Assembly: GCA_037039685.1 (NCBI GenBank)
Contig: JAWNGF010000001.1
Location: forward strand, 310,001 to 374,000
Origin: Ceratobasidium sp. AG-K
Taxonomy: Eukaryota; Basidiomycota; Agaricomycetes; Cantharellales; Ceratobasidiaceae
Length of the DNA stretch: 64,000 bases
Reading direction: 5' to 3'
Shown here: positions 42,750-62,430 of the stretch, in pieces
Layout: each line of letters opens with the position of its first letter
How positions within the stretch are numbered: position 1 is the first letter of the stretch
Translations under genes and position numbers: made by a program
The notes under the pieces: model-generated
Databases searched by the model: none
The model's input: the letters and a program-made list of their open reading frames with translations, nothing else
What the model was told of the DNA's origin: nothing

Positions 42750-45301
42750 TCATCGACGAGCTTTTATCACTACTTTCGTCTCGACTACATCCCAAAGCAT
42801 TTGTGGCTGAATTTGTCTGTCGACTTCGTCCTCATCCATTACCATATGGGCCACCTTGGTTAAAGCTCTGGGCGTATGTGACGCGACGCTCTGCTTGACT
42901 CGGTTAAAAACCCCTAATGTAGCTGTCTGACCAAACGCGGGGAAACTAGGTTGATTCTTGGGCTGGGGAAGAATATTGATACCATAAGTGGTCTTCGTAT
43001 TTTCGGACGCCGACCGAGGTTTTCCAAGGTTCAAGAACGGCGAAGGCTGAGTTATAAAGTCGAATTCACTATGAGCCGTCGTCACGAAAACCCTGAAAAC
43101 TCCAATGTCGACTTGGATGCCCTCCTCAAGTTGAAAAGTAAGAGCGCCAATGTCATCGTTGCCATACCCGATAGTGAGAGACGAGCCACTCTCTAGAGTA
43201 GGATCTATGCTTTCGTTCCCGGCGACCTTCAAAAATAGAGGCCCTTGCAGATAATATGTAACAAGCACACGAAATTATAATAGGTGTGACTCACTTATGG
43301 ACTGATTTATGGTACTAAAGTAGAAAGGGTACGCATATAACTGATAGTTTGTCTGATTTGTGATTTTGATGCCGTATTTGGTTGTGGAGGAGGACGTTAT
43401 CTCTGTACCCTCACTGCGAGTCAGATTACTACCAAGTGGCCAAAGCGTAACCTCAGTGGGACCGAGATCAGGCGCTTCGTGATCTTCAAGGACATGTAGC
43501 TCCAGTTGTAGCCCACCTACAATTTGGCGCCTCTCGGGGACTCGTGAAACGTGCCAGTTCCAAGTTTGCATTAACAAAAATGCTCTCTCGGCGTGTTCGG
43601 CATCTGGAGGGATGGCATTGGGCAGGACTCCCATGACGAATGCCCTTCCAGGCTCGGGGATCGCTTCCCAGGTCAGATCACCTGTTCGATAATCAACACT
43701 TGGCGTAAATTGGTCCCGACTCAGTGAACCAAACTGGATTGGATCATCCGGTGACTGAAGGGTCCGTCCTGACGCTTGATTCGGAGGAGTGAGCATATTC
43801 AAGTTGGAACCCGAAAAGCTAGAAGATTCAAGGAGCAGTGCATATGCGTGCACACTATGAAGAGCCGACAAGACACTGGATAGGTGAGAACCCATTATGC
43901 AACGAGATCGAAAGGGGTTGCTAGTACAAGCATCGATCATGAAGGTCCCAAGCGGAGGATTGCTAGATCCAAGTAGGTTGTTTGCGTGTAAAGTCAGGAT
44001 GGATTTTGGTGCAAATCCATGAGCGATACCAGCCGCGACGAAATAAGCATCCCCCTCCTTGATGACTGGAACAAATGAAGGGTTGACGATAGATTCGTTG
44101 GCGTTGAAAAAGCAGCGATCAACAAACTCGCCCTCGCATACTGGACTTTGAGCTCTAGTAATGAAATTTTGTGAGTTGACTACACCATGGTGAAAAGTCT
44201 AGGAAATACCCTAGAGTACGAAATTTCGAGAGTTTCTCAACGCAGTTTCTGTATGTTAACGTCTCGAGTGCTGTGTTTCGGAGGACATGCAAAAGATTCG
44301 AAGTAAAGTATCCACGGTGGTGTGTTGGGCATTCGTAGGCTAGCTCCCGTTTCCCACAAGCAGCTAATAGTACATATGGGCGCATTCCGTCATGAAAGGA
44401 GGTTTGCGGGATGCTATCTGGACGTAGTCTGGAATCAATAGTCGCATGGATATGGGGGTTGTGCCTCGCACCGGGCTGGATGGAAGTAGCTAACAAAATG
44501 TGGGGATCCAGCTCAGTATGGAGCGTTGGAAATTTTTCAGATATTGAAACGTAGCGTGCCCGGGCTGTGATTTTGGGCACAAGAGCATCCGGAACCGGCA
44601 GATGAGAAACAATGGCGTGAAGGCGGTTACGCAGGATAATGTGGGGTCGGTGCAAACTGGTTCCGACTCCTTTCGTGCCGCCTGCCGAGTGACAGCAATC
44701 AAATATCACTGTCTAGGAATAATATTATTGGATCGGGTTTACGAGTAAGTAGCTAGAAACTCACGATATTATTACCCTTTACCTCGGCTAAGTCGGACAA
44801 TAAACTAGAGAGTGTGTATGCAGGAATTGGAGGAATTAACTGGCCCATATAATCTTTGCCTTTGACATCCTGGGAAAGGATACACTGAACCTTTGCTATC
44901 GTTTTGCCGTCCGGAGAATCCACCTCGGTTCCATGACCGGCATAGTAAATAAGAATAGGAGTAGACGGCTCGATGTTAGGGTTATTACGTAGTTCGAGCA
45001 ATGCTTGGATAATCGCTGAACGAGTAGCTTCCTCATCACGTAGATTGGTGATTTGAGATGTGGGTATAGCTAAATCCTTCGTCAAATAATCACTCATTGA
45101 GTTTGCGTCTGCAACAGCCCCCGAGAGTTGTGTGATGTTGGCATATCGATCGATACCCACAATAAGGGCATGTAACCCTGAGTATAGTCTGACAGGATTT
45201 GAGTCAGCGACGCGAAAATATTCAGTAGAGTAATATCAGATGAATCTCGTACCCGGAACTCGCAACTGCTTGGTCGTGTGTCCGGTCGCGCCTTTCAGCA
45301 T
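42750..45301 (-). CDS. Divergent caspase-fold protein MC6
   Basis: Minus-strand member. A first exon from ATG 45301 (MLKGATGHTTKQLRVP) joins, through an intron ending CTATACTCAG, to GLHALIVGIDRYA; this phase-1 join is the only one I found that keeps frame. His in IYYAGHGTEVD; Cys in VIFDCCHSAGG; MRPYVLLAACGKRELAYE; HRGYFTSNLLHVLR. Downstream SPVCEGEFVDRCFF, WNWHVSRVPERRQ, YPFYFSTINQSI and IGYGNDDIGALTF match the family, and it ends MLWDVVETKVVIKARR. No extra C-terminal module. It is convergent with MC5. Intact as far as can be seen, about 780 residues. Confidence 0.85.
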
Positions 45302-45565
45302 GTTAGACGAGGATAGGAGAGCATTAAAAGTGTGCTTACGAGTCCGAACAACACACATCTGAGTCTTGAGAATGCAGCGCGGCCCAGTCGTGATTCATGG
45401 CTGATGGAGGTTGGGTTGGGATCACGGCCTGAACGCGAGGCCGTGATCGCATTGGGTTATTGCAAATTGGAACATACAAACAAGGTCATAATGTAACATT
45501 GAGCGGTACGTACACATTCCAGCAGTCCGGCACTCGTACATAAAGGCAGAAAATACACATGTGAG

Positions 45566-48298
45566 TTACTCTAGGGTCCCACGCTCTTCAACAGGTCGCT
45601 CCTTTTTCGTCTCGTCAATCGAGGGTGAGTCCCGGTCGTGCAGAGCTTCAGGGTCGGGGTGCTCAACGATGTTCGATTCTTGTTCTTGCTCTTGTGGAAT
45701 AATCAGATTAAGAATCACGGCTACAACTCCTGCAATCAAGACTATCACAGGCTTGGTTAATGGACAGAAATAGGTAAAACGCATAGTAGACTTACAAGGC
45801 GTGCTGAGTACAATTGTAATCGAATCGAAGAAGCCTTTGAGGCCCGAGTTGGCTTCGACACCATCAAACAAGTGGGCGTACCTAGATCGCTCACATAAGT
45901 TGCATGTAAATATAAATACGAATCTGGCGTGCCATTCGGGAACTAGCAAATCACCCAGGCCAAACGACAAGGCCGCGGCCAGGATAAACCGATCCCGCCT
46001 TTGCCATTTGATGGTTGACAGGACACGGATGCCAGATACCATGACCGAGGCAAAAAGGAACGTCGTTACGCCGCCCAGCTAGATAACATAGTTAGGTATT
46101 GGTCCTAGGTGATAATATTTGTAGTGGGCTTACCACGGAGTTAGGAACTAATACACGCGGATGAGTTGCCATAATAAGATACCGTGGACAAGATGTAACT
46201 CACTACTCAAGAAGACGCCGGAAATCTTTCCAAGGATACCGAAAAAGATCAAGAACCCGCAGCACCACCTTCCAGCGGTACGGTTCGCACAGCGAGTAAT
46301 GGCAATCTGACAAAGCATTTAGGCCGAATCCCGACGAAGGAAGCGACATTCTTACCACACCCTACAATTCGTTGTGAGTGATGATCCCCCGAAATTGAAG
46401 ACAGAATAATACGCACGTTATTCTGAGCAAAAATAGAGAGCGGGGTGACCGTGAACAATGCCGAGATGAACCCGCCAATTCCGTCTGCCAAAACGCCACC
46501 CTGAATTCGGGTATCGAATACCTCTCCATCGACTTCGACACGAGAGACCTCGGCACTGGCCGTGATATCCCCAATAGCTTCCATAGCGAGAGAGACTAAA
46601 ATCAAAGTTTTGTTAAGCAGGTTTAGATGGAGCATGGTAGTTTTACGTACCGTATACAGCCAGCATGGGGAGGATTGCGGGTGCGTATACACGGAGTTTA
46701 AACGTCTTGACCCTATTACGTTCATGAATATTATAAGGACACTGTATTCAGCCAAACTCACCAAATGAATGTGATAGCAGGCGCGCGATTGATGGCGCTC
46801 GCGTCCATGTATCTGTCCCAAACTCAGTCTCCTCCAACCATCAATAACTGGAGTTTAGACTCACCCGGCTGCACCGGCAACAATACACCCGACCAACAAG
46901 CCGACAATAATGCTCGCATTCTTCAAGAACGGAGATCCGAATAACTCCACGAGAACAATGGTGATGAACGACAGGAAGCCGAGACCAATGAACTCGGGAG
47001 AACCCCAAGGAAGCGGACGCCTATAGGAGTAATTTGAGCACACGAGCAAACATTTACGTGGATCAACGATAATGTTTTGATGAACAATGCGTGGGTTCGA
47101 TCAATAATTGGCTCTCACTAGCGTAGATAAGGAACGCACTTGGCAAAGATAGTCGGGCATAACTGGAAGATCCCCGTCTCCGGGCGGAGGTGGCAGTCGT
47201 TGGAGCCTCCAGCCCAGTTGAGTACACCGGACTCGCCAATCCTGTCAAGCCATGAGTGTCCATTGTAAAACCGAGGTTCGAAGGCTTACAAAGATGCACC
47301 GATAAGAAGGATAACAGTTCCGGTCACGATGGGTGGGAAGATTTTCTTCAATTTCTTGGGTGGAACGAATGCCATGCCCATCTCAAGGAACGAACAAACG
47401 AGAGAGGTACCTGTCTTTGGGTCAATTTGAGAGATGCGGAGCATCGGCTGGAGGCGTACCGAGTAACATGCCATATGCATCTGGACAAGGCCCTTTGGTT
47501 ACCGTTCCGTCTGCGTTGGTTGTGCTGGGACAGGTGCCGTTCGCGTAGAGGCTATTGAAAATCTAAAGGCGCAAATCATTCAGCACTTGATTCGGATAAT
47601 TGTGAACCTGTCGCTGACCGAAAATCCTGTGGAAAGAGTTGCGAAACTCGTCCCGACGACGGTAATCAATCCCGTTCCGAGATAATAATTGCGCCAAATG
47701 TGTAACCGGGACATTTGGACCAGTGATAGGATGCCACATCCTATCAGAGAAGCGCTAATCTATGGTGACGGATGAGTATGTGAAGCAGGAGTGAGGAAAT
47801 TACGTACCATGTAGGCTTGTGTGCTTCCGTCCAAGTTGAGAGCCGAGGAGAAAATGATCGGAGGGGTGATGAGACCTGCCAGCATGGCGAGGGCATGTTG
47901 GAACCTAAGAACCGTAGAAAGTAAGTCTTGCCGGTGGGAAGTGGTACAATGGAAACATACCCGCAGGTCATGGCCAATAGAATCGGCAAGTCGGCATCAA
48001 GAGCGTAGAACTGAGGTGCACGGGTTGCCTTGCGTTTTCCCCATGGTAATCCAGGAGAACAACTATAACTGGGTAAGGATTCTCTTCAATAACAAGATGT
48101 CGTATTCGACTCACAGCCAAGCTGAACCACACGTCAGAACTAAGCAGGCAATAAAGAATCGAGTCGTACTCACCAAAATCATAATCGCCCAACCAACCAT
48201 CGCGTGTCGTGAACTTCTTTCCATACCGCTTCACGCTTCGAAAGCGATCAGTCGTGGGTGGAGCGTACGGCTCCAGGTTGCTCGTTCACATAAGACAT
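45566..48298 (-). CDS. NAT/NCS2 purine permease, xanthine-uric acid (UapA/UapC) type
   Basis: Multi-pass membrane transporter of the nucleobase-ascorbate family, which in fungi imports xanthine and uric acid with protons. Seen: N-terminal RDGWLGDYDF, then PWGKRKATRAPQFYALDADLPILLAMTCG, YYLGTGLITVVGTSF-like region, MLRISQIDPKTGTSL, PPIVTGTVILLIGASL, LPWGSPEFIGLGFLSF, LFGSPFLKNASIIVGLL, AMEAIGDITASAEVS, and the NAT signature QNNGVIAITRCANR. The Gly-Val of that signature comes from a 6-nt exon (46356-46361). The C-terminus is acidic/charged, typical for UapA-like proteins. Start ATG 48298 follows a TATAAG box by about 90 bp; a 51-bp intron (GTACGC...GGAAAG, with CTGAT) then joins MSYVNEQPGA to KFTTRDGWLG. 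That first intron is a best guess. Confidence 0.88.
46356..46361 (-). other. 6-nt microexon (Gly-Val of the NAT signature)
   Basis: On the minus strand ...GAATTGTAG|GGTGTG|GTAAGAATG.... The upstream exon ends CAG AAT AAC before GTGCGT (intron 46362-46416, 55 bp); the downstream exon starts ATT GCC ATT after TTTGTCAG (intron 46307-46355, 49 bp). Joined it reads QNN-GV-IAITRC. Without it the invariant Gly of the family signature is missing. Confidence 0.85.
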
Positions 48299-49305
48299 GG
48301 CGAGTGGAGGCACCTAGTCGAGCAGATGATGCCTTCGTCGAGGAGTGATCGACGAGAGCGGGTTGCAACCTCGACTTGCGGCTTATAAGGACAGAAGCAT
48401 CGTATCACATCGAAATAGAGCCGAGGGCCGAAGTGCAACTGTCAGCGCGAACCACAATCAAGCGAGCGTGCGATAAGGTGATTAGATAAGCGGAGATAGG
48501 ACATTTGGATCGCGGGGATTGGAAGATACGGCTCAGGTACGAAGTGGAGTGTTCTCGACGTCTGTTTGTCGTGGAGGCCTATTTGATGTTATTGTGAGGG
48601 GTCGTCCGATACGGCTCATGACATGTTGCGTCGAACAGCCATGCTGATATGGTAATATAGAAATCAGGGTTGAACGTTACTTAGGGCCATTGATGGAATG
48701 TATTCCGAAATCTGCCTATGGTACCATGACGCCGCACGGGATCGTTTATAGACTGAGGATATAGTAAACTGAAATCAGTTGTCGGCTCGTCGCGGTGGTT
48801 GTTCATCCCACCCAATTCACCAAAGAACTCACGTGACCACTTATCGGACTCTTGGCCGGACTTGGCTGGCAACGGCTTGCCTCCTAACCACGCGGCCGAA
48901 AAAGCCTGGGTTGTGCTGAGACGTCAACTGCTTTGATCCTCGGTACAAACTACAAGCTCGGTGTTTTGTTTGAAGCTCGGAGGCCGCGGAAAAAACTGTT
49001 GGTCCGGCTCTATGCGCCGTCTTGTGCTAGCTCGGCCTGGGGTCTCTGGTCGCAATTTTTTCGCCAACTTGATCACCGAGACTGGGAAGTCTTGACTCTG
49101 TCTACTTCACCTATGAGGCTTACGTAGTCTAAACCATCCGTGCGAGCGCTGATTAAATTACTCGCCGGTGACTCTAAGAGCTGCTTGCGACTCATTGCTG
49201 AATCTCAGAGGATTCAAGCCCCATCACCCCGAGCCCAGGCATTACAACAAAAATATGTGCGACTACTAGTACATAGAACACAATCGTTCAAAACGTGATT
49301 CAATC
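48299..49305. other. Intergenic, permease 5' flank
   Basis: A TATAAG box (minus strand, about 48383-48388) belongs to the permease promoter. The rest shows no supported gene. Confidence 0.4.
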
Positions 49306-50049
49306 TTATTGTCCTCGCCGGATTTTGTCATCCAAGTCTCTTGACAGGCCATCCATATCCAGACCGCTCTTCCACCAATCCCAAAGGAAGGCCGCCGTCT
49401 TGTTCTGCAGCATCTCCACATAATCCAGATATATAATTTGCCTGTACACTGGATGAAGCTGCGCCGACTTGCTCAGGCATGCCGCGAACGATTGGGAGAG
49501 GTCGCTCGCCAATACGCCCGTAAAGTATATTCCCTTGTTTGATGTTCCAAGTACGTCGTTTTCTATTATGATCAAAGGATGGAGTATACCGGATGGAGAG
49601 CGAACTCCCACGCCTGTTTGGGTGTCAGTTTGGATGAAATGAGAAAGGATGTAAAAGTAGCGCACCAATTACCAGTCCCTTTCCATCACTCCCTGGTAGC
49701 TGCCTACTGTCGTATGTCAGAAACACTACACAGACTCCCAATGTTTATTCGACTTGCCGTCTGAAAAGTTTGAGAGCATGTGTATTCACTCTTTTCTCTC
49801 CGCTCTCGACAAACTGACAACACGCTTCAGCCGCAGCAGGACAACTTTCATACTGATCAACAAGCTCCCCACGGGTTGGTTTGTATTCAGAGGAGTCGGA
49901 TCTGGAAGTTATGAATGAGACTGCGCAATGACAACGTAACAATCAGCCTATTATACCAGATAGTGAGATCCTCACAAACCTGTGTCGAGTGGTGGACTTG
50001 GGGGTGGACTATGTTGATGATACGAATACGCATGGCTGTAGAATGGCAT
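49306..50049 (-). CDS. Unrecognised small protein, about 200 residues
   Basis: No family recognised. Exons join as MPFYSHAYSYHQHSPPPSPP..., VSFITSRSDSSEYKPTRGEL, QYESCPAAAEACCQFVESGE, then QLPGSDGKGLVIG-VGVRSPSGILHP, LIIIENDVLGTSNKGIYFTG, HPVYRQIIYLDYVEML, and end LDDKIRRGQ. A continuous frame needs a GC donor (GCAAGT after TTCAGACG, about 49750) and a donor at GTGCGC. A TATAAAG box lies about 150 bp upstream (about 50193-50200). The LIIIEND strand within a globular region and the soluble composition give no firm function. It is a plausible gene because a long coherent frame emerges only with proper splice sites. Confidence 0.5.
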
Positions 50050-51211
50050 CTTGGTGGCTTGAATAGAAAAAATACGAATAACTGAATCATTTCGCTGACG
50101 TCAGTAGCAGTTCTCGTCTTGTTGCTCCCACACCTACCAACTGAACGCACTGAACGCAAGGTTCTGAACTCGCTCGTCGGGCTGGAGCTCTTTATACCCA
50201 AATCGAAGGCGCAAGGCAATCACGTACCCCACAAAAGAGTCGAAGAAGCCAAATTCTAATTGGCCTTTTCGCCGCGAGAACGCACGCTCGGTGACGGATT
50301 TGGGCAATAAGTTTACGTTTTTCTCCAGCGGACATCAAACGGATCTTGTGATACTCTAAAGGGATGGTTCAATTCAGACGAACACGAGGCGATGTGCAGA
50401 CATGTGCCGAGTAAGGCGGTAGTCATGTGTCCCTTTTTGAAAATTTAAGGGCTGGGAGCTCGTTAGCATAGATTTGGTCGAAACAAAACCTGGACGTTAC
50501 GGGAGCAACACGGTGTCAGGCGCAAAATCGGCTTTCCATTTTGGCTTATATTCCACCATTCAGGTTCTACCACTAGCCTCAACTATGTACCTTCTTCGGG
50601 GGACCTCCGACTAGCGACCTAACATAAAGCCTTCCAGAGTAGTATTATCCCCAAGTAGGGTGAATATACCTATATTTCTGTCAGTTTGAACAGGCCGATA
50701 ATGAAATGGTAATACCGGTTAGGGGCCGACAGAGTTACATATCGGCATTTCAATTTCTTTTTGGTAGGATGGGCGACTATAGATAACTAGCCCTCATGGG
50801 ATCCTTGGATCGTGTCTCTGAGGTAGTCCATCAGCAGAAGGGCATAAATAAATACAATACAATTTAGTTCCGGATGGATAGTGGTCAAAATTGTATCTTG
50901 AGTTTGAGGTTGAGCGACTAGCTGTTTTCAGGACGAATTTACGACCCAAGTGATTGAGGGGTGGCAGGTGTATTTGAGGTGATTGTGGTCGAGCGACGAC
51001 TGTGTATCACATTTGTTCAGGCGTAAAGCGATGTCTATAACAACGGATGAGAAAAGACTGTTGCGGCATTTGTTCATCTATTCAACTGTTGGAACAAGAT
51101 TAAACGGATGGTCAGGTTGAGCGAGTAAAGGAAAACTGACCCAAACACAGATCTACTTAGTTGACCATTTTATCCAATACATTATACGCTACGTCGAGTT
51201 GGATGGTGACG
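50050..51211. other. Intergenic
   Basis: About 1.2 kb with the TATA box of the preceding minus-strand gene at its left end and the 3' flank of MDP1 at its right. No gene is supported. Confidence 0.4.
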
Positions 51212-52663
<1,452 letters not shown>

Positions 52664-55600
52664 ATGTTTTCCCATCGCTTATGCATTTATCAGCGAGGAT
52701 CACGGACAACTGGGGATGCTGACACGAGGCTGCCACAGGCGACAAACCACTATGTCCACGCGTTTCGCACAGTAAATGTAAGTCGAGAACGCTTCAGATT
52801 GATAGAATGATCACAAAAATGAGTGCATGCGTTAGAATAAATATTATGACTGACATGCCAATATAATAGGGTGTAAGCCAGTTGGTTTATGCGTTAAAAT
52901 CAATTAACTTATCCCGTAATTGGTTTGCGACCAAAGGGAGTGAGTAAAAGCTTCCTTATTCGGTAATCAAAGGCCTCTACTCACCATACCTATAGAGGGT
53001 GAGTGCCAAACTATGCACTCAAGCCATTTCCTAACCACTAAATCGATCGAACACACTCTCAGCTGGTAAGCACTTCAACATTTATCACGGAGTAGAACAA
53101 TAGGTGTTTAGGTACCACATGACATGAATGGTTATGAACGTAGATTGTGAGTATGATACCATCCATCTCGAATTTACAATCAACGATGTGGGAACTCTCC
53201 GGCTGTAAAGTCGGTGCGATACAGATAATGTGCGCCGCGAATCGAACTAACCCAAAAGGCTCCTCGGCGTTTCCTACTATGATAGCTGGTGAGCATCAAT
53301 GTTCCTCTCGTGATTGATCTGACCTAACCTTGCTATATCGCTGGTTGCTAGCCGGTAAGACAGTCGGACTAATATTCTTGAATAGGCTCACTCTCATTTG
53401 ATATAACCCCTTTCTCATAGGAAGTACGTAACTTTTTGGAGGAGTCTGAAAATAACTGACTTGAACGCATACATTGCTTACAGCGAGTAAGTAACATATC
53501 CTCACACAATTCAACAGAAATCCATCCGTTTCCTCGCTGAATATCTTGTAGGATGTAAGTCTTGACTTGTCTAAGTTATGTTTATCTGACGGGTGCTACT
53601 ATCACATCACGCTAATAGGAGGTGAGTGTCTCTGAATATTTTCTCGCCAAGCACCGTCATATCGTCCCTGAGCCCATCTTCCATGTGACTTGAGGTGCCC
53701 AGCCAGCGCAATTCAGAGAATCTATATTCTGACTGACTATCATTTCATTACACTTTTCATTATAGATAGTAAGCCAATTGCAGTTTTCGTAAAGAGCGAT
53801 TCAATCATTGTACGGCGACGACTCGTGATTTTAGTTGTTCAAGGTAGGTAATCCACACCAAATCCAATAAGTTCAAGCCCGTCTACTAAATATTATGCTT
53901 ATAGTTGGTAAGTAAATTGTCGGGCTTGTACCATTGCACTGAGGCGCGTTTGCGTGTCTGCTTGCTTATAGAGGGTGTGTTATATGTTGCGTTGACTCAG
54001 GTTTTGTTCTAATCGTATTCGGGTATAGGCCTCTAACATGAGTATACCGCCAGTCAACGCGGGGGTAAGCGATAGTCAACCCAAAAGTGCGGGATTGATT
54101 GGGCCCAATACATCGAACCCAAATTCAACTCAAATCCGATCGAATAAACCCAAGCCAACTAGTACCACCCCAGCCAAGGTCGGATCTGCCAATTCGCCAT
54201 CTTCCGAGGTGAATCCACTCAAAATCAAGGCAAAACCGTCCAAGTCCAAGGCTTCGAATACATCCCATGGCGAACCAAAGGCTGTAATTCGCAGCGATAC
54301 GGTGCGTTTACGCGCATATAGGTATTAATCTTGCAATTACTGAAGGAGTACAGGCATTTCTCGATATTATCCACCTGCTTGAGAAGAGTGGCTGCCCGGA
54401 TCTTACGAGTCGGCTGGATCTCGGGAACTGCTCCGCATATCCTGTTTCCAACGGTGGTGCTGGAGATGTCTTTTCGGGAAAATTGGATGATGGGACTAAA
54501 ATAGCAATCAAGATTATACACGCATGCTCATCGGAAGGTCACCCCACTGGAAAATACCAGAAGGTGCGCGCGGCTCAGCTGGATAGGAAGCCACTAATAT
54601 TTCCTGCGTAGCGTGCGGCGAAAGAAATTCACGCATGGGCCAAGTGCAATCATCCCAACGTCGCGAAGCTCATGGGACTGGTGCAATTCAAGGACGGCCT
54701 AGCAATGGTTTCTAGATGGGCCAAGAATGGGAATCTCCTATCGTATCTCAAGCAAAACCCATCGGTGAACCGGTGTGCCTTGGTATGACCTCTTCATATG
54801 ACATACGATCTTTTTATAATCCACCTGTGCGGTCTTGTGCCTCCGGTAGTGCACCTCTATCTGTGAAGGACTGGCGTACTTGCACCGAAACAATATTGTG
54901 AGTCAATCCCAGACACGCTTTGAAAGTGTCGCCGTTTAACGCCTGCGTAGGTTCATGGTGATCTCAAGGGGGTGTGTGCATATGTCCCAATGACACAGTT
55001 GCACAACTGTTGACCACTCGCCTAACTCCTAACTGCAGGCGAACGTCTTGATATCAAATGATGGAATTCCGATGCTTACTGACTTTGGGAATGCGAACAT
55101 GGCGGCTTCCACTCTTGTATTCACACAAACTGCCACCGCTGCGAGCTTTTCGTTCCGCTGGACCGTCCGTATCCTTTCACTTATTGAGATCTTTTGTTAA
55201 TTAATAGTCCCAACAGGCGCCCGAGATATTTCGAGAAGGCAACAGACGTAGTACTGCCGGGGATGTATATGCGCTCGGAATGGTTGGTAGTTACCATGCA
55301 TGGATAATTCACGACGCTGATGTCCCTGCTACTACAGACTATACTGGTAGAGTCACCTTTTGGCCGTCGTGGTTCCTAGACTCAATGCAATGCCGATAGG
55401 AAACACTCACCGGGAATGTTCCATATCCCGAGGTCAATGATATGACTATATTTTTCACGGTCATCGTCAAGCGCAAGCTACCCCAGCGGCCAGAGGATCA
55501 GATTCCCTCGAGCAGCGTTTACGGAAATGTACTTTGGGCGCTACTTCTGAGCTGCTGGTCTTATAAATCACGCCTACGTCCAAGTGTATGGGATGTCAAA

Positions 55601-55757
55601 GACATTGTAAGTCACTTGAAATATTCGTGTGCAATGGTCTAGGATTACCTGCTGAAAACTGTGCTACTAGATGAAACAAATTACACCTGAGAAACTACTC
55701 CCAGTTGAAGCTGATTCAGATAGCGATGACGAGACGTTGGGCATCAATCTGGGGTAA
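52664..55757 (+). CDS. Tyrosine-kinase-like (TKL) protein kinase with one-codon exon array
   Basis: Exon 1 (52664-52777) reads MFSHRLCIYQRGSRTT...AFRTVN and ends at GTAAGT. It is joined by a chain of single-codon exons (52870-53974) to a large exon from 54029 encoding a Ser/Pro/Lys-rich, probably disordered region. The kinase domain follows: glycine loop GGAGDVFSG, Lys in IAIKII, helix-C Glu in AKEIHAW, NHPNVAKLMGLVQF, NGNLLSYLKQNP, CEGLAYLHRNNI, catalytic loop VHGDLKGANVLIS, TDFGNA, APEIFREGN, GDVYALGM, a 9-nt exon ACTATACTG (55338-55346), LTGNVPYPEV, CWSYKSRLRPS and an acidic end DSDSDDETLGINLG. HGDLKGANVL is usual in fungal TKL kinases. Every catalytic element is present, so it should be active. 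Function and partners unknown. Confidence 0.85.
52870..53974 (+). other. Array of one-codon microexons within the TKL kinase gene
   Basis: Repeated pattern acceptor AG | 3 nt | donor GTRNGN at: 52870 GGT, 52937 GGA, 52996 AGG, 53063 CTG, 53144 ATT, 53211 TCG, 53286 CTG, 53352 CCG, 53421 GAA, 53484 CGA, 53552 GAT, 53619 GAG, 53766 ATA, 53835 TTGTTCAAG, 53905 TTG, 53972 AGG, then the long exon at 54029. Introns between are mostly 54-78 bp (one of 144), many with CTRAY-like branch sites and TATAG ends. All are phase 0 and together read GGRLISLPERDEILFKLR with no stop, linking two ordinary exons in frame. The acceptors before GGA and TCG are AAAG and therefore weaker. Confidence 0.8.
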
Positions 55758-56829
55758 ATAAAAATTTGCGCCGAGTAGAGCTCGCAGAAAATCTCCTTGA
55801 TGCCATTGTACTGAGATGTAACGCGTACCTTTCTTGTAGTTGATGTACAGTAGCTCAAAGTGCGTTGTATAACACATATCACATGAGAGCTTCTCGATTT
55901 CTCTTTTTTGACCGTGCCTGAGTTACCTTTGTGTGGACAGTTTGTTTTCTTACTTTCTTTTCCGATCGTTGGGTCTCCGTTGACTCCGAGCGGTTTGACC
56001 TTGTGTTCGTGTAGCTCGATAAAGATGTATTCAAAACAAAAAATTAAAATTAAAAATATCACGTGACATTTTGTCACGCCTCTTGTCAACCACTGTCGTT
56101 TGAGTGCCTCGATCCGCAAAGGTTCCCCCCACGAGGATCACGGTATTGTAGGATCGATATCTGGGTCAAGATTAACCTGTATTGAAACATTGCTTTGACT
56201 AACGGATGCTTGCTACGGTCGCAATTGAATACTCTGCGAGCTACTCTCAGTCGAGTCGCCTTGGGTGCTGCCCCTATCGAGTAATTGAGCTATCTCTTGT
56301 TGACATCGGATCTTGCTCCGAAGCTACCAGAGTCGCCTCCTTTCGCCAGGTACGGAGGAAGAACTATTAACGCGTTCGATCGAACTTTCGCGATCACGTG
56401 TATCATCGGCCGTTCACTCACGATCTCGACCTCGCGCCATCGATAGCTGGACCTCTGCCCTATCCATTGAAACCGATACGAATCAACCCTGGAGAAGTCC
56501 GACACGATGCAGCGGGCTGGACTCGACGCATACTATGCGGTCACCCCGACATGACACCGACGTCATCTTGGCCGAGCTCAAATCCCATTCTCACGTAGGT
56601 CCAGTCGCGTTCTCACATTTTGTTTCTCACGTTGTAATTAAATTTATATTTCTGAAGGTGTCTCACGATAGTAATGTGCTCTGAGAGTACTGGGAGTTTA
56701 TCTTGTTGTTGGTGGTGGTGCAGCGAGAACGCGGCATGGGCCCTGATCTGATTCCCACGCTGAGCGTTCCCACGAATCGAAGGCATTTATAGCCCCTGGC
56801 CCATAGTGCGCATAGAGACACCATCCACT
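55758..56829. other. Intergenic, TKL kinase to glycogen phosphorylase
   Basis: No supported gene. A TTTATAG box at about 56787-56793 lies about 40 bp before the phosphorylase ATG and is probably its TATA element. Confidence 0.45.
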
Positions 56830-59800
56830 ATGGCTCCCACCTCGCGACGCAACTCGGAATCTTTCCAGACCATCGATACCGCTGCTATCGGCAAGCCGCC
56901 TGAGAAGCAGGCGCGCAAGCACAAGCGATCGGCCACTGGTGCGCGCATATATGCTATATACATATATATGGTATTCATGTTTATATCTAGGATATATCCC
57001 CACCGCTGAGGGCGGCAAGGAGGTATGGCCGCGCGGCGACGAGAAGACTTGGAAGGCTGGTATTCGGGGTGTCGATTCGACTAGAGAGGAGATTACAAGC
57101 CACATCGTGAACCACGTCCAGACGACTATCGCTCGTCAGGCATACAACCTTGATGATGTACGTTACCCTGATCTACGAGTGATCTATGCTAATATCAAAT
57201 CGACTTTCAGCAAGGCGCGTACCAGGCTGTCGCGTATGCCGTCCGAGACGACCTCATCGTGAACGTGCGTGTTGTTTGACCAGATCAAGATCGAGATCTG
57301 AGCTGAGCTGACGCGTCCCACAGTGGAATGAAACCCAAATGAACTTTACCCGAAAGGGCCCGAAGCGCGCATATTACCTCTCCCTCGAATGGCTCATGGG
57401 ACGTACACTTGATAACGCGTTGCTCAATTTGGGTCTCAAAGACAAGTACCGTGATGGCGTCAATAAGCTCGGATTCGTGAGTGCCGACCCCGCACCCTAC
57501 CCCACACCGAATCTGATCGCTCCTTTCCTCCCACGTGATGTGATTTACGATAGAACTTGGAAGATCTCTTCGAGCATGAACGCGACGCTGGTCTCGGAAA
57601 TGGCGGTCTTGGCCGCCTCGCCGCTTGCTACGTCGATTCGTCCGCCTCTCAAGAGCTGCCCTTCTGGGGTTACGGCCTCCGTTACCACTATGGTATCTTC
57701 CAGCAGTTGATTGCCGCCGATGGATCCCAGCTCGAAGCGTAAGTTTTATTTCCGATGCACTTTACAAGCCTTCCCGTCTATCCATCATCTATCTTCATCC
57801 GTTTATGGACTAACACTGCTTTTCTCAAAGTCCTGACCCATGGCTCAACCACGCCAATGCCTGGGAAATCCCCCGTTATGACGTGACCGTCGATGTTCGG
57901 TTCTATGGTCAGGCTGAGCGCATCGGAAACACTGGACGCGCAACTTGGAGCGGTGGACAGGAAGTCGTTGCTGTCGCGTATGACGTTCCGATTCCAGGAT
58001 ATTCGACCAAGAACACCAACAGTACGTTACTCATTTTACGTAGATTCGTATTTGCGACCAATCATTGATCGTAGATCTGCGTCTTTGGGATGCTCGCGGA
58101 AAGTCTGGATTCGATCTTCAATCCTTCAACGCTGGCGACTACGAAAAGTCCGTCGAGTCGTCCAACTCTGCCGAGAACATTACTCGTGTCTTGTACCCGA
58201 ACGATAATCACATGGTCGGAAAAGAGTTGCGCTTGAAGCAGCAATATTTCTGGTGTGGTATGTGAGATCCCGTTAGCCTGTCGGCGTATCTTTCTCACAT
58301 TTTCTGTAGCTGCCTCGTTGTCCGATATCCTACGTCGTTTCAAAAACTTGGACAAGCCTATTAATGAATTCCCAGACTTTGTTGCAATCCAGCTTAACGA
58401 TGTGAGCACTTGCCTGCCTTGGTTGGGTTCACATTACTGAGATTAGGTTTAGACACATCCCACGCTTGCTATCCCTGAGTTGATGCGCATTCTCATTGAC
58501 GAGGAGGAGATTACATTTGAACAGGCATGGGACATCACGACCCGGACTTTTGGATATACCAACCATACCGTCCTGCCGGAAGCTCTCGAGGTACAGGATT
58601 GTGTTCATCAGAGCGATATGTTATGCTGACTACTCCTTGGTAGAAATGGCCCGTTCCACTTTTGCAACACTTGCTCCCACGTCACATGCAGATCATCTTT
58701 GACCTTGTAAGCCCTTTCACTGACCCTTAAGATTTACAGACTTATATCCCCCTTTATAGAACTTCCGGTTCCTCAAGCAAGTCGAGAAGAAGTTCCCAGG
58801 AGACCGTGAGAAGATCGAGAGGTTGTCGCTGATCCAAGGTCGGTGTTTTCCCCACTTTATCCATATTAGGTTACAAATGCGAGTAAAACAGAGGGGTACC
58901 CCCAGTATGTCCGCATGGCCAATCTGGCTGTCATCGGTTCGCGCAAGGTGAACGGTGTCGCCGAGCTCCACTCTGAACTCGTCCGCACTACAATTTTGAA
59001 GGACTTTGTCGACTTCTATGGCGCTGAAAAGGTGCGTTGGCTCTCACAGCCCCCGCTTACTAAACACTTATCTGGGACCCTTAGTTTGGCAACGTTACCA
59101 ATGGTATCACTCCTCGTCGCTGGCTGGACCAGTGTAATCCCGCACTAAGCAATCTCATTACTGAGACCCTCGGCGGCGACAAGTCTGCGTGGCTCAAAGA
59201 TCTCTACAAGCTTAAGGGTCTGCTTAAGCATGCCGATGATCCAGCGTTCCAAGCCAAGTGGATGGCTGCCAAGCAGAAGAATAAGGAGCGTCTGGCTCAC
59301 TACGCACGCGAGACTTTGGGCGTAGAGGTCGACACCAAGAGCTTGTTCGATGTTCAGATTAAGGTATGTTCTGCTCGTGTTGTTATTGTACTAATTCTGA
59401 TACGCCACGGCGAATAGCGTATCCATGAGTACAAGCGTCAAACCCTGAACATCTTTGGGGTGGTTTACCGGTACTTGAGGCTCAAGTCGATGACTCCCGA
59501 GGAGCGAAAGAAGCAGCAGGCTAGGACTAGCATCTTTGGTGGCAAGGCTGCTCCCGGATACTACATGGCCAAGCTCGTGAGTTAAAATCTTGGCCTTCGA
59601 TTACCTGGTGTGCTCACTGTACGCTTAGACAATCCGTTTGATCGTCAATGTTGCCAAGGTCATCAACTCGGATCCAGACATGAAGGGATTGTTAACTGTT
59701 ATCTTCTGCCCTGATTACTGTATGTCGCTTCTGGGGGTTGGAAGAGCAATCAGTTAACCTTGGACTCAGCCGTCTCGCTCGCCGAGATTTTGATCCCTGC

Positions 59801-60782
59801 CGCCGACATTTCTGAACATATTTCGACTGCGGGTACTGAGGCTGCTGGAACTTCCAACATGAAGTTCTGTAAGTGGGTTTGTTATATGTCCTTGTTAAGT
59901 AAGTAATATCTCCGTTGCTCATCAGGTTTGAACGGCGGTCTGCTCCTCGGAACCGTCGACGGCGCGAACATTGAAATCGCCGAGGAGGCTGGCGAGGAAA
60001 AGTAAGTCGATTTTTTGACCAGCGGTACCGGTTATTAACATTCGGTTCTAGTGGTACGTTGACAAAGTTTGAATTATAAAGGGGGTTTTATTTATTTTTA
60101 TACTGATTCCTTCGCGCTTGTTTTTGTATCGCAGTGTAAGTCCAACCACCTCTGGGTTGCATCACGGTCCACTGACAATATTTCGTATTTAGCTTCTTCT
60201 TTGGTCACTTGACGCCCGCTGTTGAGGACCTCCGCTACCAGCACGCCTACCATCCCGTCCCCGTCGAGGAGAAGTCTCCTGCTTTGGCCTCGGTCTTGGA
60301 CGAGATTTCGGCCGGTACGTTCCGTGTCTAATGTTTAGATTTTATACTTACGTTTCGTAACCCCAGGTCGCTTCGGTGATGGCGAAGTCTACGAACCTCT
60401 CTTGAACACCATCCGCCAGAGCGACTACTACCTTATCACTGTAAGTTGTTATAATTCAGCTACGATCCTCGTAACTAATACGTACCACGCTTGTAGGAGG
60501 ACTTTGATTCTTGTTAGTACTCGTTTACTTGTGAAATGGCGGTATATGCTAACGGTTTTTTGTAGACATCGCCTGCCAGAATATCGTTGACGAGGCATTC
60601 AAGGACAAGGCTGCTTGGGCCAAGAAGTCGATCACGACTGTTGCCAAGGTATGACTTTTGCCTGATTCCCACTTGGGTGGTACTAATTCGGAGGTATATA
60701 GATGGGCAAGTTCAGCTCCGACCGTGCCATCTTGGACTATGCTGAGTCGTACTGGAACGTCGAGCCGGTCAAGTGCCCGTGA
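56830..60782 (+). CDS. GPH1: Glycogen phosphorylase
   Basis: GT35 glycogen phosphorylase, releasing glucose-1-phosphate from cytosolic glycogen; requires pyridoxal phosphate. About 870 residues after removing some twenty introns. Seen in order: N-terminal [12 protein letters not shown] (basic/Ser-rich, reminiscent of the regulated N-terminus), [110 protein letters not shown], and the PLP-site region [18 protein letters not shown] followed by [10 protein letters not shown]. The lysine of SNMKF is the expected PLP Lys. Ends VEPVKCP. Three tiny exons: 2 nt (60052-60053), 1 nt (60135), and 16 nt (60497-60512). The symbol is by analogy with yeast. Confidence 0.95.
60052..60135 (+). other. 2-nt and 1-nt microexons in glycogen phosphorylase
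   Basis: Upstream exon ends GAG GAA AA (60001). Then GTAAGT...TTCTAG | TG (60052-60053) | GTACGT...TCGCAG | T (60135) | GTAAGT...TTTAG | CTTCTTC (from 60193). Joined: GAA AAT GTC TTC TTC TTT GGT, giving ENVFFFG. A single 191-bp intron would also stay in frame but give ENFFFG, one residue short of the conserved spacing. Confidence 0.72.
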
Positions 60783-62430
60783 ACGAGCAATAAATGTTAT
60801 GTGGGCCTGGGGAAAACAGAAAACAACGAGATTGTATACTAGTGTATCCGCTGTCAAATGATGTGAATACAATAAACTGACGAATGATGTGAGATAATCG
60901 GGTGTATGCGCGACTCAACTCGATAATGCCAGTATGGGACCATCTGAAGACTAAATTCCCACCGCTAAGCCATGATGCCTTGGTAATTCTGCAGAGAGCG
61001 TGACTTAATAAAAATTGCGCTCTTTGGGGCTCAGGCAGCATTGACAAAGCGAGTTGTCATTTATGCAATCCAAGAAAGATTGAGTATTTAGCAAGATTTG
61101 TGCATTTTTAGGGTGCATTTATCGTAGAGTACCACCTCATGTGAGCGAATTGACGATCCCAGAGCTCGATGTGGACGAATGGCCATCATCTGTGTTACCT
61201 ATCATATAATCGGTTCCCGGATCCTCGTCACTATTCCATGAATCCCTTTCGTAGCCTGCGTAATATCTGTACGATAAGGCAAGCTCTGTATGCGCATTCC
61301 CAGCTGCTGCAGGCTCGTTCATGTTCTCTACAACGCATATGGATGGCAATCCATATTTGATACCGTAGCGAGATTATGGAGCTACTTGTCCTGCGGATAA
61401 AAATAAAATACCAACCCCGTATGACCCCTTCAGCCTCAAATTACTGGGAAGTCTCGAAAACACCCACATAACGTTGAGCCATGAAATAGTACATGCTATA
61501 GCATGGCTCCTACGTCAGGCCACGAGCAAGGGATACCACGTGTCAAGACTAAGCTCCCCTCTGATTTTCTACGGAATCATCTAGGAGTGCTTGGTTTTGC
61601 ATGCCACTATGAGCTCAATCTTCCAGACGAGGACAGGCCTGCAGGAACGCAGGCAGGCATCCCTCCATACTGTCCACTCCCAGACAAAGTTGCGTTGCAA
61701 CCATGTCTTCGGACGCAACATCCGAGATACGTAGGCCTGGCGTTAGTCTTGAAAAATCAAACAGCTCGTCTTGTTCCTAAAGCCCGTGTGAATACCTAGC
61801 TAGGAAAGGGAAGAGTTTAAAATAGCCACTTGCATAATCATCGAGCCATGCGTGCAATAAAAGTTCCTCAAGCATTGGCGCATATTTCTCCCCTATCTCA
61901 TTACTTGGGAAAGCCGGATCCTTGATATTGCCAAGATTTCTTGCGCATATATGCATCTATAGAACTACATAGCTTCCTCTCTCAAAGCTGTATCTAGCCC
62001 AAGTAAAAGGCTACATGACAAATTTGATCAGTGCCTCACAAAATTGCTAACAAATGCGACCATTTTGATTTGGTCACTTCTCATTCATTTTCTACCCATT
62101 TGCGATGCCCTTAGGCTTTTTGGATAGCGCGTATGTTGTAGTGTCATTAGCTGGATTATTTACATTTTTACAACCTCGTTTTGGGTCTCCATTCTGCGGG
62201 CTGTGTAAAACACCTGTTTCTGCGAACAATTTTGTGAGGAACTGTAGACTATAACATACGCATGCATTCGGTCGTCCACAAGAAATTATGAAACTTTTTG
62301 AATGCACAAAGCCTGTCAAAGTTTCATAGCCTCAGAATTGGATGTAGCTCGGGAACACTCTAAAATCACACTCTGAGAAATCCTCGACAAGTATTACGTT
62401 AGGTTTTCTCAGACAAACAAACAATATTGA
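60783..62430. other. Intergenic region with weak open frames
   Basis: 1.65 kb. A minus-strand frame 61137-61349 (ending SSSGIVNSLT) and a plus-strand frame 61503-61799 look gene-like in composition, but neither joins to neighbours with proper splice sites nor shows a family motif. Left unassigned. Confidence 0.3.

Follow-up and report, generated by a model that had tools for sequence, protein, structure and literature searches.

The nank (NACHT-ANK) genes of the ascomycete Tuber melanosporum are described, in the accessible parts of three reports, as containing tens of codon-sized, alternatively spliced microexons (PMC3689799, PMC4986451, PMC10197012); the source cited for them is Iotti et al. 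2012, Fungal Biol 116:261-275. On these partial accounts, it is thus already known in principle that exons of codon size can form arrays. Here, we describe an array of one-codon exons in the 5' part of a protein kinase gene of the basidiomycete Ceratobasidium sp. AG-K. The array lies in a 64,000-nucleotide (nt) stretch of DNA, the window, which covers positions 310001-374000 of contig C1 in a genome of 53.6 megabases and 17 contigs. Judged by the available descriptions of the nank genes, the two systems are both fungal, belong to expanded fast-evolving families, have tens of 3-base-pair (bp) exons per gene and have been suggested to serve diversification; the Ceratobasidium genes encode kinases, whereas those of Tuber encode NLR-type receptors. 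Alternative splicing is a reported feature of the Tuber genes, whereas the arrays described here are known from genomic sequence alone. Many consecutive phase-0 exons of exactly 3 nt, as in the nank genes, are present in the window gene and its paralogues. An initial annotation of the window had stated that no gene with an uninterrupted series of 3-nt exons was known, which does not agree with the tens reported for Tuber.

The schistosome micro-exon genes (MEGs) are also made of many very short exons, given as 3-81 bp in the accessible part of the source (PMC10526429). The short exons of the MEGs are, however, variable and not of one codon each, their introns are long, and they encode secreted proteins. 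Single exons of 3 or 1 nt are reported, in the text available, to be spliced in Drosophila homothorax and in Arabidopsis (PMC7392893, PMC4674806), where they are isolated, whereas those described here are consecutive. The genome paper of R. solani AG8, as far as its text is accessible, names microexons solely as an aligner setting. A literature search conducted mostly outside subscription papers returned no paper recognised as describing codon-exon arrays in Rhizoctonia or in kinases, or as repeats of intron and codon in tandem.

The window array spans positions 52870-53974 of the + strand and is formed by 15 three-nt exons and one nine-nt exon, all in phase 0. The introns between 52873 and 54028 are 64, 56, 64, 78, 64, 72, 63, 66, 60, 65, 64, 144, 66, 61, 64 and 54 nt long. 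The run of about fifteen consecutive one-codon exons proposed in the initial annotation is thereby recovered. Its recurring units are present as well, but they do not follow a strict 64-bp period, since the distance from unit to unit varies between 57 and 81 bp and is 147 bp in one case. Spliced together, the array codons read GGRLISLPERDEILFKLR; the frame stays open through 54029-54301 and continues into the kinase exons. The initial annotation had likewise noted an open frame that connects an upstream with a downstream open reading frame. Upstream of the array, a looser decoder places a 39-nt exon, which is separated from the proposed start codon by a 77-nt intron (52662-52738) and from the array by a 92-nt intron. 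A decoder favouring 3-nt exons recovers the array and the 92-nt intron, but not the extension to the ATG. The features are listed below; one-codon exons are read from the splice-site chain and the spliced frame, and all exons from 53835 onwards that are longer than three nt from the spliced frame.

52659..52661, + strand: proposed start codon ATG, with an intron (GTATGT) directly 3' (decoder and sequence)
52739..52777, + strand: 39-nt exon ATNHYVHAFRTVN, phase 0 into the array (looser decoder)
52870..52872, + strand: one-codon exon GGT (G)
52937..52939, + strand: one-codon exon GGA (G)
52996..52998, + strand: one-codon exon AGG (R)
53063..53065, + strand: one-codon exon CTG (L)
53144..53146, + strand: one-codon exon ATT (I)
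53211..53213, + strand: one-codon exon TCG (S)
53286..53288, + strand: one-codon exon CTG (L)
53352..53354, + strand: one-codon exon CCG (P)
53421..53423, + strand: one-codon exon GAA (E)
53484..53486, + strand: one-codon exon CGA (R)
53552..53554, + strand: one-codon exon GAT (D)
53619..53621, + strand: one-codon exon GAG (E), followed by the 144-nt intron
53766..53768, + strand: one-codon exon ATA (I)
53835..53843, + strand: nine-nt exon TTGTTCAAG (LFK)
53905..53907, + strand: one-codon exon TTG (L)
53972..53974, + strand: one-codon exon AGG (R)
54029..54301, + strand: linker exon, Ser/Pro/Lys-rich (ASNMSIPP...)
54354..54563, + strand: first kinase-domain exon (PF00069 match)
54612..54782, + strand: kinase-domain exon
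54850..54897, + strand: kinase-domain exon, 48 nt
54951..54971, + strand: kinase-domain exon, 21 nt (VHGDLKG)
55039..55164, + strand: kinase-domain exon
55217..55283, + strand: last kinase-domain exon followed; the model ends before the 3' end of the gene

The longest chain of AG-NNN-GTRNG motifs in the window has 15 units on the + strand and 2 on the - strand. In 300 dinucleotide-preserving shuffles of the window, the longest chain was 1 in 156 cases, 2 in 138 and 3 in 6. Only the spacer of 3 nt gives a long chain; with spacers of 0, 1, 2 and 4-15 nt, the chains reach at most 2 on the + strand and 3 on the - strand. It is hardly credible that the array is a product of chance or of the assembly, as the shuffles reach 3 against the 15 observed, and ten distinct genes on contigs C1, C3, C6 and C7 carry arrays of different sequence. 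An assembly artefact might be read from the presence of the window segment in three near-identical copies (C1:362k, C1:6667k and C6:3126k). An alignment of 4.8 kilobases (kb) lists 9 differences from the window for one of the other copies and 14 for the other, with the alignment edge counted, and none of the differences among the three lies inside the array exons. Tandem Repeats Finder detected no repeat at the window array, and therefore the regularity of the array is not that of a recent repeat.

The spliced protein of the window gene contains a protein kinase domain (Pfam PF00069, E 1.6e-31). The best protein matches have identities of 55-63% over 63-70% of the query, and those with names are from Rhizoctonia solani. 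The closest relatives are kinases of Rhizoctonia solani and Ceratobasidium, and the gene is, judging by these similarities, a tyrosine-kinase-like protein kinase of Ceratobasidiaceae. A Pfam scan of the spliced protein (337 residues, with the 3' end of the gene excluded) returned kinase-type families only, without NACHT or ankyrin. There are 89 NACHT-domain matches across the genome.

Related loci were collected by searching the genome with the 127 residues at the start of the kinase region, and the returned loci were scanned for chains. Ten distinct array-bearing genes were read: the window gene, K210, K190, K232, K264, K225 and K238 on C1, K1075 on C7, K289 on C6 and K595 on C3. K289 and K595 each have a near-identical second copy, and five further array loci are indicated by the spacing of intron matches. 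In a strict count, chains of at least four three-nt exons occur in 10 of 12 contigs, K254 and K3036 being those without, and the antisense strand has no such chain in any of the 12. Eight less related kinase loci (L001-L008) contain no chain longer than 1. A tree was built of 23 loci, of which 13 carry arrays if near-identical copies are counted. Arrays are found on several of its branches, with array-less genes between them; some supports of this tree are low, and array-less loci were often seen for only ~1.5 kb upstream. The layout of an ATG directly before a donor GT, proposed for the window gene, is also seen by eye in K225, K238 and K595. One unit of K595, with the codon ATG (L079/L028, C3:592-597k), apparently has a GC donor, GCAAGT, also by eye. 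K490 was considered as a close paralogue with its introns removed and was rejected, as the stretch read has no array and the upstream DNA cannot be aligned to the K595 array.

K225 and K238 are diverged paralogues with 24 tiny exons of equal size and order: 9, 3 and 6 nt, followed by three-nt exons, and then 6 and 3 nt. The array peptides of the two genes, PDPGTRLVLRFGLRMLNLVLDHEDLPQE and PSPKQRFILRMGLRAANLMLDQMDASEE, are identical in 14 of 28 residues; an example of K225 peptide spanning array codons is LNLVLDHEDLPQEER. The 21 three-nt exons agree in 41 of 63 nt, compared with 21.3 (standard deviation (sd) 3.7) for random pairing, and none of 100,000 random pairings reaches 41. The BLOSUM62 score of the peptides is 71 versus -25 (sd 12) for random pairing, again with 0 of 100,000. 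The intron cores, in contrast to the codons, are saturated, with an identity of 0.683 versus 0.704 (sd 0.016) for shuffled intron pairs. K232 resembles the two genes by eye only. A reading of the pair with exons of 10 and 7 nt, and hence with three-nt exons in phases 1 and 2, was discarded, because with donors GTCAGT and GTTAGT allowed these exons become 6 and 3 nt long and phase 0 is kept. The 113 codons of the diverged arrays include no stop codon, compared with 12 among 195 isolated AG-NNN-GT sites (Fisher p 0.0047); the K210 and K1075 arrays have 0 of 47 and 0 of 36. The retention of exons and codons between unrelated introns and the lack of stops bear out the proposal of the initial annotation that the one-codon exons belong to a kinase gene.

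The array could alternatively be intronic or untranslated, being spliced over as a whole or lying upstream of a transcript start (for example at the ATG at 54038), with its units representing remnants of a repeat that carries splice sites. The young arrays described below are tandem repeats, and a repeated unit bearing splice sites would produce the pattern mechanically; a TAG inside the K190 array also fits this explanation. It is nevertheless improbable, since old arrays that have no repeat similarity keep exact 3-nt exons and splice sites while the length of their introns drifts, K225 and K238 conserve codons and not introns, and stop codons are depleted. The codon conservation of K225 and K238 is strong support, short of transcript level, for array codons that would be spliced together and translated.

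We conclude, with a probability of roughly 0.83, that the window array is genuine, a series of one-codon exons in phase 0 within the 5' part of the kinase gene, and that it belongs to a family-wide system; the actual splicing and translation of its codons are what we infer from the genomic pattern. Several observations weigh against this conclusion. A CTRAY branch-like motif is located within 45 nt of the acceptor in just 7 of the 16 window array introns. The looser decoder merged some window units into exons of 35, 19 and 66 nt; parses by looser decoders were inconsistent and were set aside. The window array peptide is in no database protein (five candidates, none at E up to 10), and a protein database search with the K225 array peptide gave no candidate. 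The parses of K225 and K238 were made one by one with a decoder in which 3-nt exons are favoured and stops penalised, and two K238 exons at the start, of 9 and 6 nt, were placed by hand; these are outside the 21-exon test and inside the 28-residue peptide comparison. The quantitative comparison of paralogues rests on this one pair. The K190 array (C1:190-192k; L035, L043) has one TAG among its 21 codons, and the gene may be broken or the TAG unit skipped. Finally, the likeness of the window peptide to contiguous N-termini of kinases is not significant over all 69 N-termini.

This last comparison concerned a contiguous helical N-terminal domain of Ceratobasidium kinases (P0113, P0067 and P0019), to which the window peptide at first had a suggestive likeness. 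The relationship was rejected, with p 0.005 against the three domains chosen post hoc and 0.05-0.15 against all 69 N-termini. The peptides of K225, K238, K232, K264 and K210 have no likeness to the contiguous domain. In contiguous form, the domain of P0113/P0067 is present in this genome at C6:2284780-2285405 (- strand) and C2:1052092-1052458 (+ strand).

In K210 and K190, the array is a tandem repeat with a period of 68, present in 44.5 copies at 79% in K210 and in 18.1 at 87% in K190; the period corresponds to a 65-nt intron and one codon. The introns are 0.824 identical within K210 and 0.892 within K190, while codon identity is 0.409 and 0.375 versus random values of 0.432 and 0.412. Near-random codons thus alternate directly with near-identical introns. 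All 56 genome matches of the 65-nt intron are in these two loci. The frame of K210 is open from the ATG through the array, MQLGTHSLG-KKG-KLNRDTLERENELEAAR(E)AARERELRERELSQYLVELRR(S)HEQAEAEL, where the residues in brackets belong to units missed by the regular expression, the first of which has an unusual donor. The K210 array peptide looks like a coiled coil. The 144-nt intron of the window array may consist of two fused units, and it and a 133-nt intron of K210 look like units that lost or skipped an exon with the frame kept. The window introns themselves were rejected as clear relatives of the 65-nt repeat introns, with a weak mean z of 0.79, compared with 11.5 for K190, 1.97 for K595 and -0.16 for the kinase-domain introns of the window gene.

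Two origins of such arrays can be envisaged. The near-identical introns might be mobile units that were inserted in the manner of introners, either between codons already present or with duplication of a 3-bp target. Introner-like elements of Dothideomycetes are near-identical spliceosomal introns in multiple copies, according to the accessible text (PMC4457414). The introns of K210, K190 and K1075 are similar to them in being near-identical, unlike those of the window array, which have diverged; introners are, however, spread over hundreds of unrelated genes, whereas the near-identical introns here are found in tandem in arrays of one kinase family. Insertion would account for codons that are unrelated despite nearly identical introns, and for a 65-nt intron that is identical in both genes but has AAT before it and CGG after it in K210, where K190 has CTT in both places. 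It is also consistent with neighbouring K190 units sharing codons more often than expected (5 versus 2.1, p 0.04). However, no mechanism is known for insertion at all codon boundaries and nowhere else, K210 has no lag-1 excess of codon sharing, and its block duplications take codons along. We regard insertion as rather doubtful.

The other origin is tandem duplication of whole intron-plus-codon units, in which recombination homogenises the introns and selection diversifies or protects the codons. K210 has recent multi-unit block duplications with matching codons and intron lengths, and a lag-2 excess of codon sharing (p 0.005). Among 15 pairs of K210 introns with at least 0.95 identity, 67% have the preceding codon in common. 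Homogenised repeats with hypervariable codons are known. The repeats of transcription activator-like (TAL) effectors are homogenised in tandem, have a hypervariable codon site, change in length by recombination and are wholly coding. The high-internal-conservation WD40 repeats of Podospora HET-D and HET-E are likewise homogenised, with hypervariable codons and recombinational length change, in the available part of the source (PMC12222747). The HET repeats are wholly coding, whereas the repeat described here consists almost entirely of intron and would contribute no more than its variable codon to the protein. Against duplication, introns are as alike between K210 and K190 (0.847) as within either gene. 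We give duplication about an even chance and lean towards it over insertion, with insertion close behind.

The youngest array, of K1075 (L087/L077, C7:1069624-1073.7k), contains 36 one-codon exons, which read GYYYRLTRYVYRDGGYYYYGVVGYRGDRVVDYGVVD, together with 32 introns that are each 109 nt long. The identity of these introns is 0.975 over their whole length and reaches 0.992 in the first 95 nt. The variation is concentrated at the codon: the diversity of the three codon columns is 0.65, 0.68 and 0.51, compared with 0.008 over the 95 intron columns. K1075 thus shows homogenised repeats with excess variation at the codon, as in the HET repeats. Fully identical introns form 81 pairs, and in 28% of these the two introns follow the same codon, where codon frequencies predict ~21%. 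Codons that are near random even next to identical introns speak against duplication of whole units, and sparing 3-nt codons between 109-nt introns at 99% identity would require very short tracts or strong selection. The intron 3' ends have three forms tied to the next codon, with CGAGAATAG followed by TAT in 11 of 11 cases. Because the form of the intron end tracks the following codon, intron and codon are not wholly unlinked, and a segment of ~12 nt at the intron 3' end behaves as if it were exchanged like a cassette. By eye, some units upstream of the K1075 array also appear to have GC donors.

The 109-nt intron occurs in seven further clusters on C7, C3 and C5, in which the gaps are exactly 3 nt in 74 of 83 cases. 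Five clusters are located ~1.5-1.7 kb upstream of same-strand kinase matches (C7:2384k, C3:2622k, C3:5603k, C5:2274k and C5:2117k, of which C5:2117k has no more than two partial matches), a placement shared by the four longest clusters of this intron, and those at C5:2155k and 2291k have no kinase match among the matches listed. All 129 matches of the intron are in arrays, except an isolated 53-nt piece at C5:2126082. That both intron families are, with this exception, found only in arrays argues against insertion of a mobile intron. The arrays appear to differ in age, with intron identities of 99% in K1075, 89% in K190 and 82% in K210, and no clear repeat similarity in the window gene, K225, K238 and K232. 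The arrays of these last four genes keep exact three-nt exons despite the divergence and length drift of their introns.

Splicing by intron definition, as put forward in the initial annotation, is a reasonable inference from this architecture. Each donor would pair with the next acceptor 50-110 nt downstream, and the three-nt exon would be whatever remains between one acceptor and the next donor. Every short intron would most likely be removed singly, joining the single codons into a peptide ahead of the kinase domain. In the 5' region of the kinase genes, the units of intron and one codon probably arose by tandem repetition. Block duplication would alter the length of an array, and an array would age as its introns diverge around 3-nt exons and splice sites that stay intact. 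With one phase-0 codon per unit, the gain, loss or skipping of a unit would change the protein by one residue and leave the frame unaltered. Skipping of units could be a source of protein variants, as the initial annotation suggested.

The array peptides differ greatly among the genes, that of K210 being coiled-coil-like, those of K225 and K238 rich in leucine and methionine, and that of K1075 composed of Gly/Tyr. This variation, together with the Podospora HET and Tuber NACHT-ANK cases, suggests by analogy that the array peptide may form a variable segment ahead of the kinase that serves interaction or recognition. We speculate, at less than even odds, that the arrays are spliced generators of diversity, tandem repeats of intron and codon from which splicing would leave only the variable codon in the RNA. 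It is comparably tentative that recombination would reshuffle, lengthen and shorten the peptide residue by residue and always in frame, with introns multiplying independently of codons. With no greater confidence, the array might be likened to a TAL-effector or HET array whose scaffold is spliced out, possibly serving self/non-self recognition upstream of the kinase. If transcripts confirm the splicing, the genes would provide an extreme test of the smallest exon that can be joined, dozens of times per transcript. They would also provide intron arrays of graded age, from 99% identical to fully diverged, in one family, and would allow the origin of dense introns and one-codon exons to be tested directly. 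Annotation pipelines would be expected to miss the arrays: neither of the searched peptides, from the window gene and K225, was found in the protein database; the proteins of the array-bearing kinase family may be routinely truncated at the N-terminus in annotation.

The window gene lies in a large near-identical duplication, which comprises approximately positions 45000-61500 of the window, C1:6659507-6675843 and C6:3118768-3133843. Probes at 45 kb and 60 kb match both other copies, the 45-kb probe on C6 over 59 nt only. In the copy at C1:6667k (L010, C1:6665603-6670402), a kinase exon is one base longer than in the window, with the insertion at the site that corresponds to window position 54479; this copy could be a pseudogene or reflect an assembly error.

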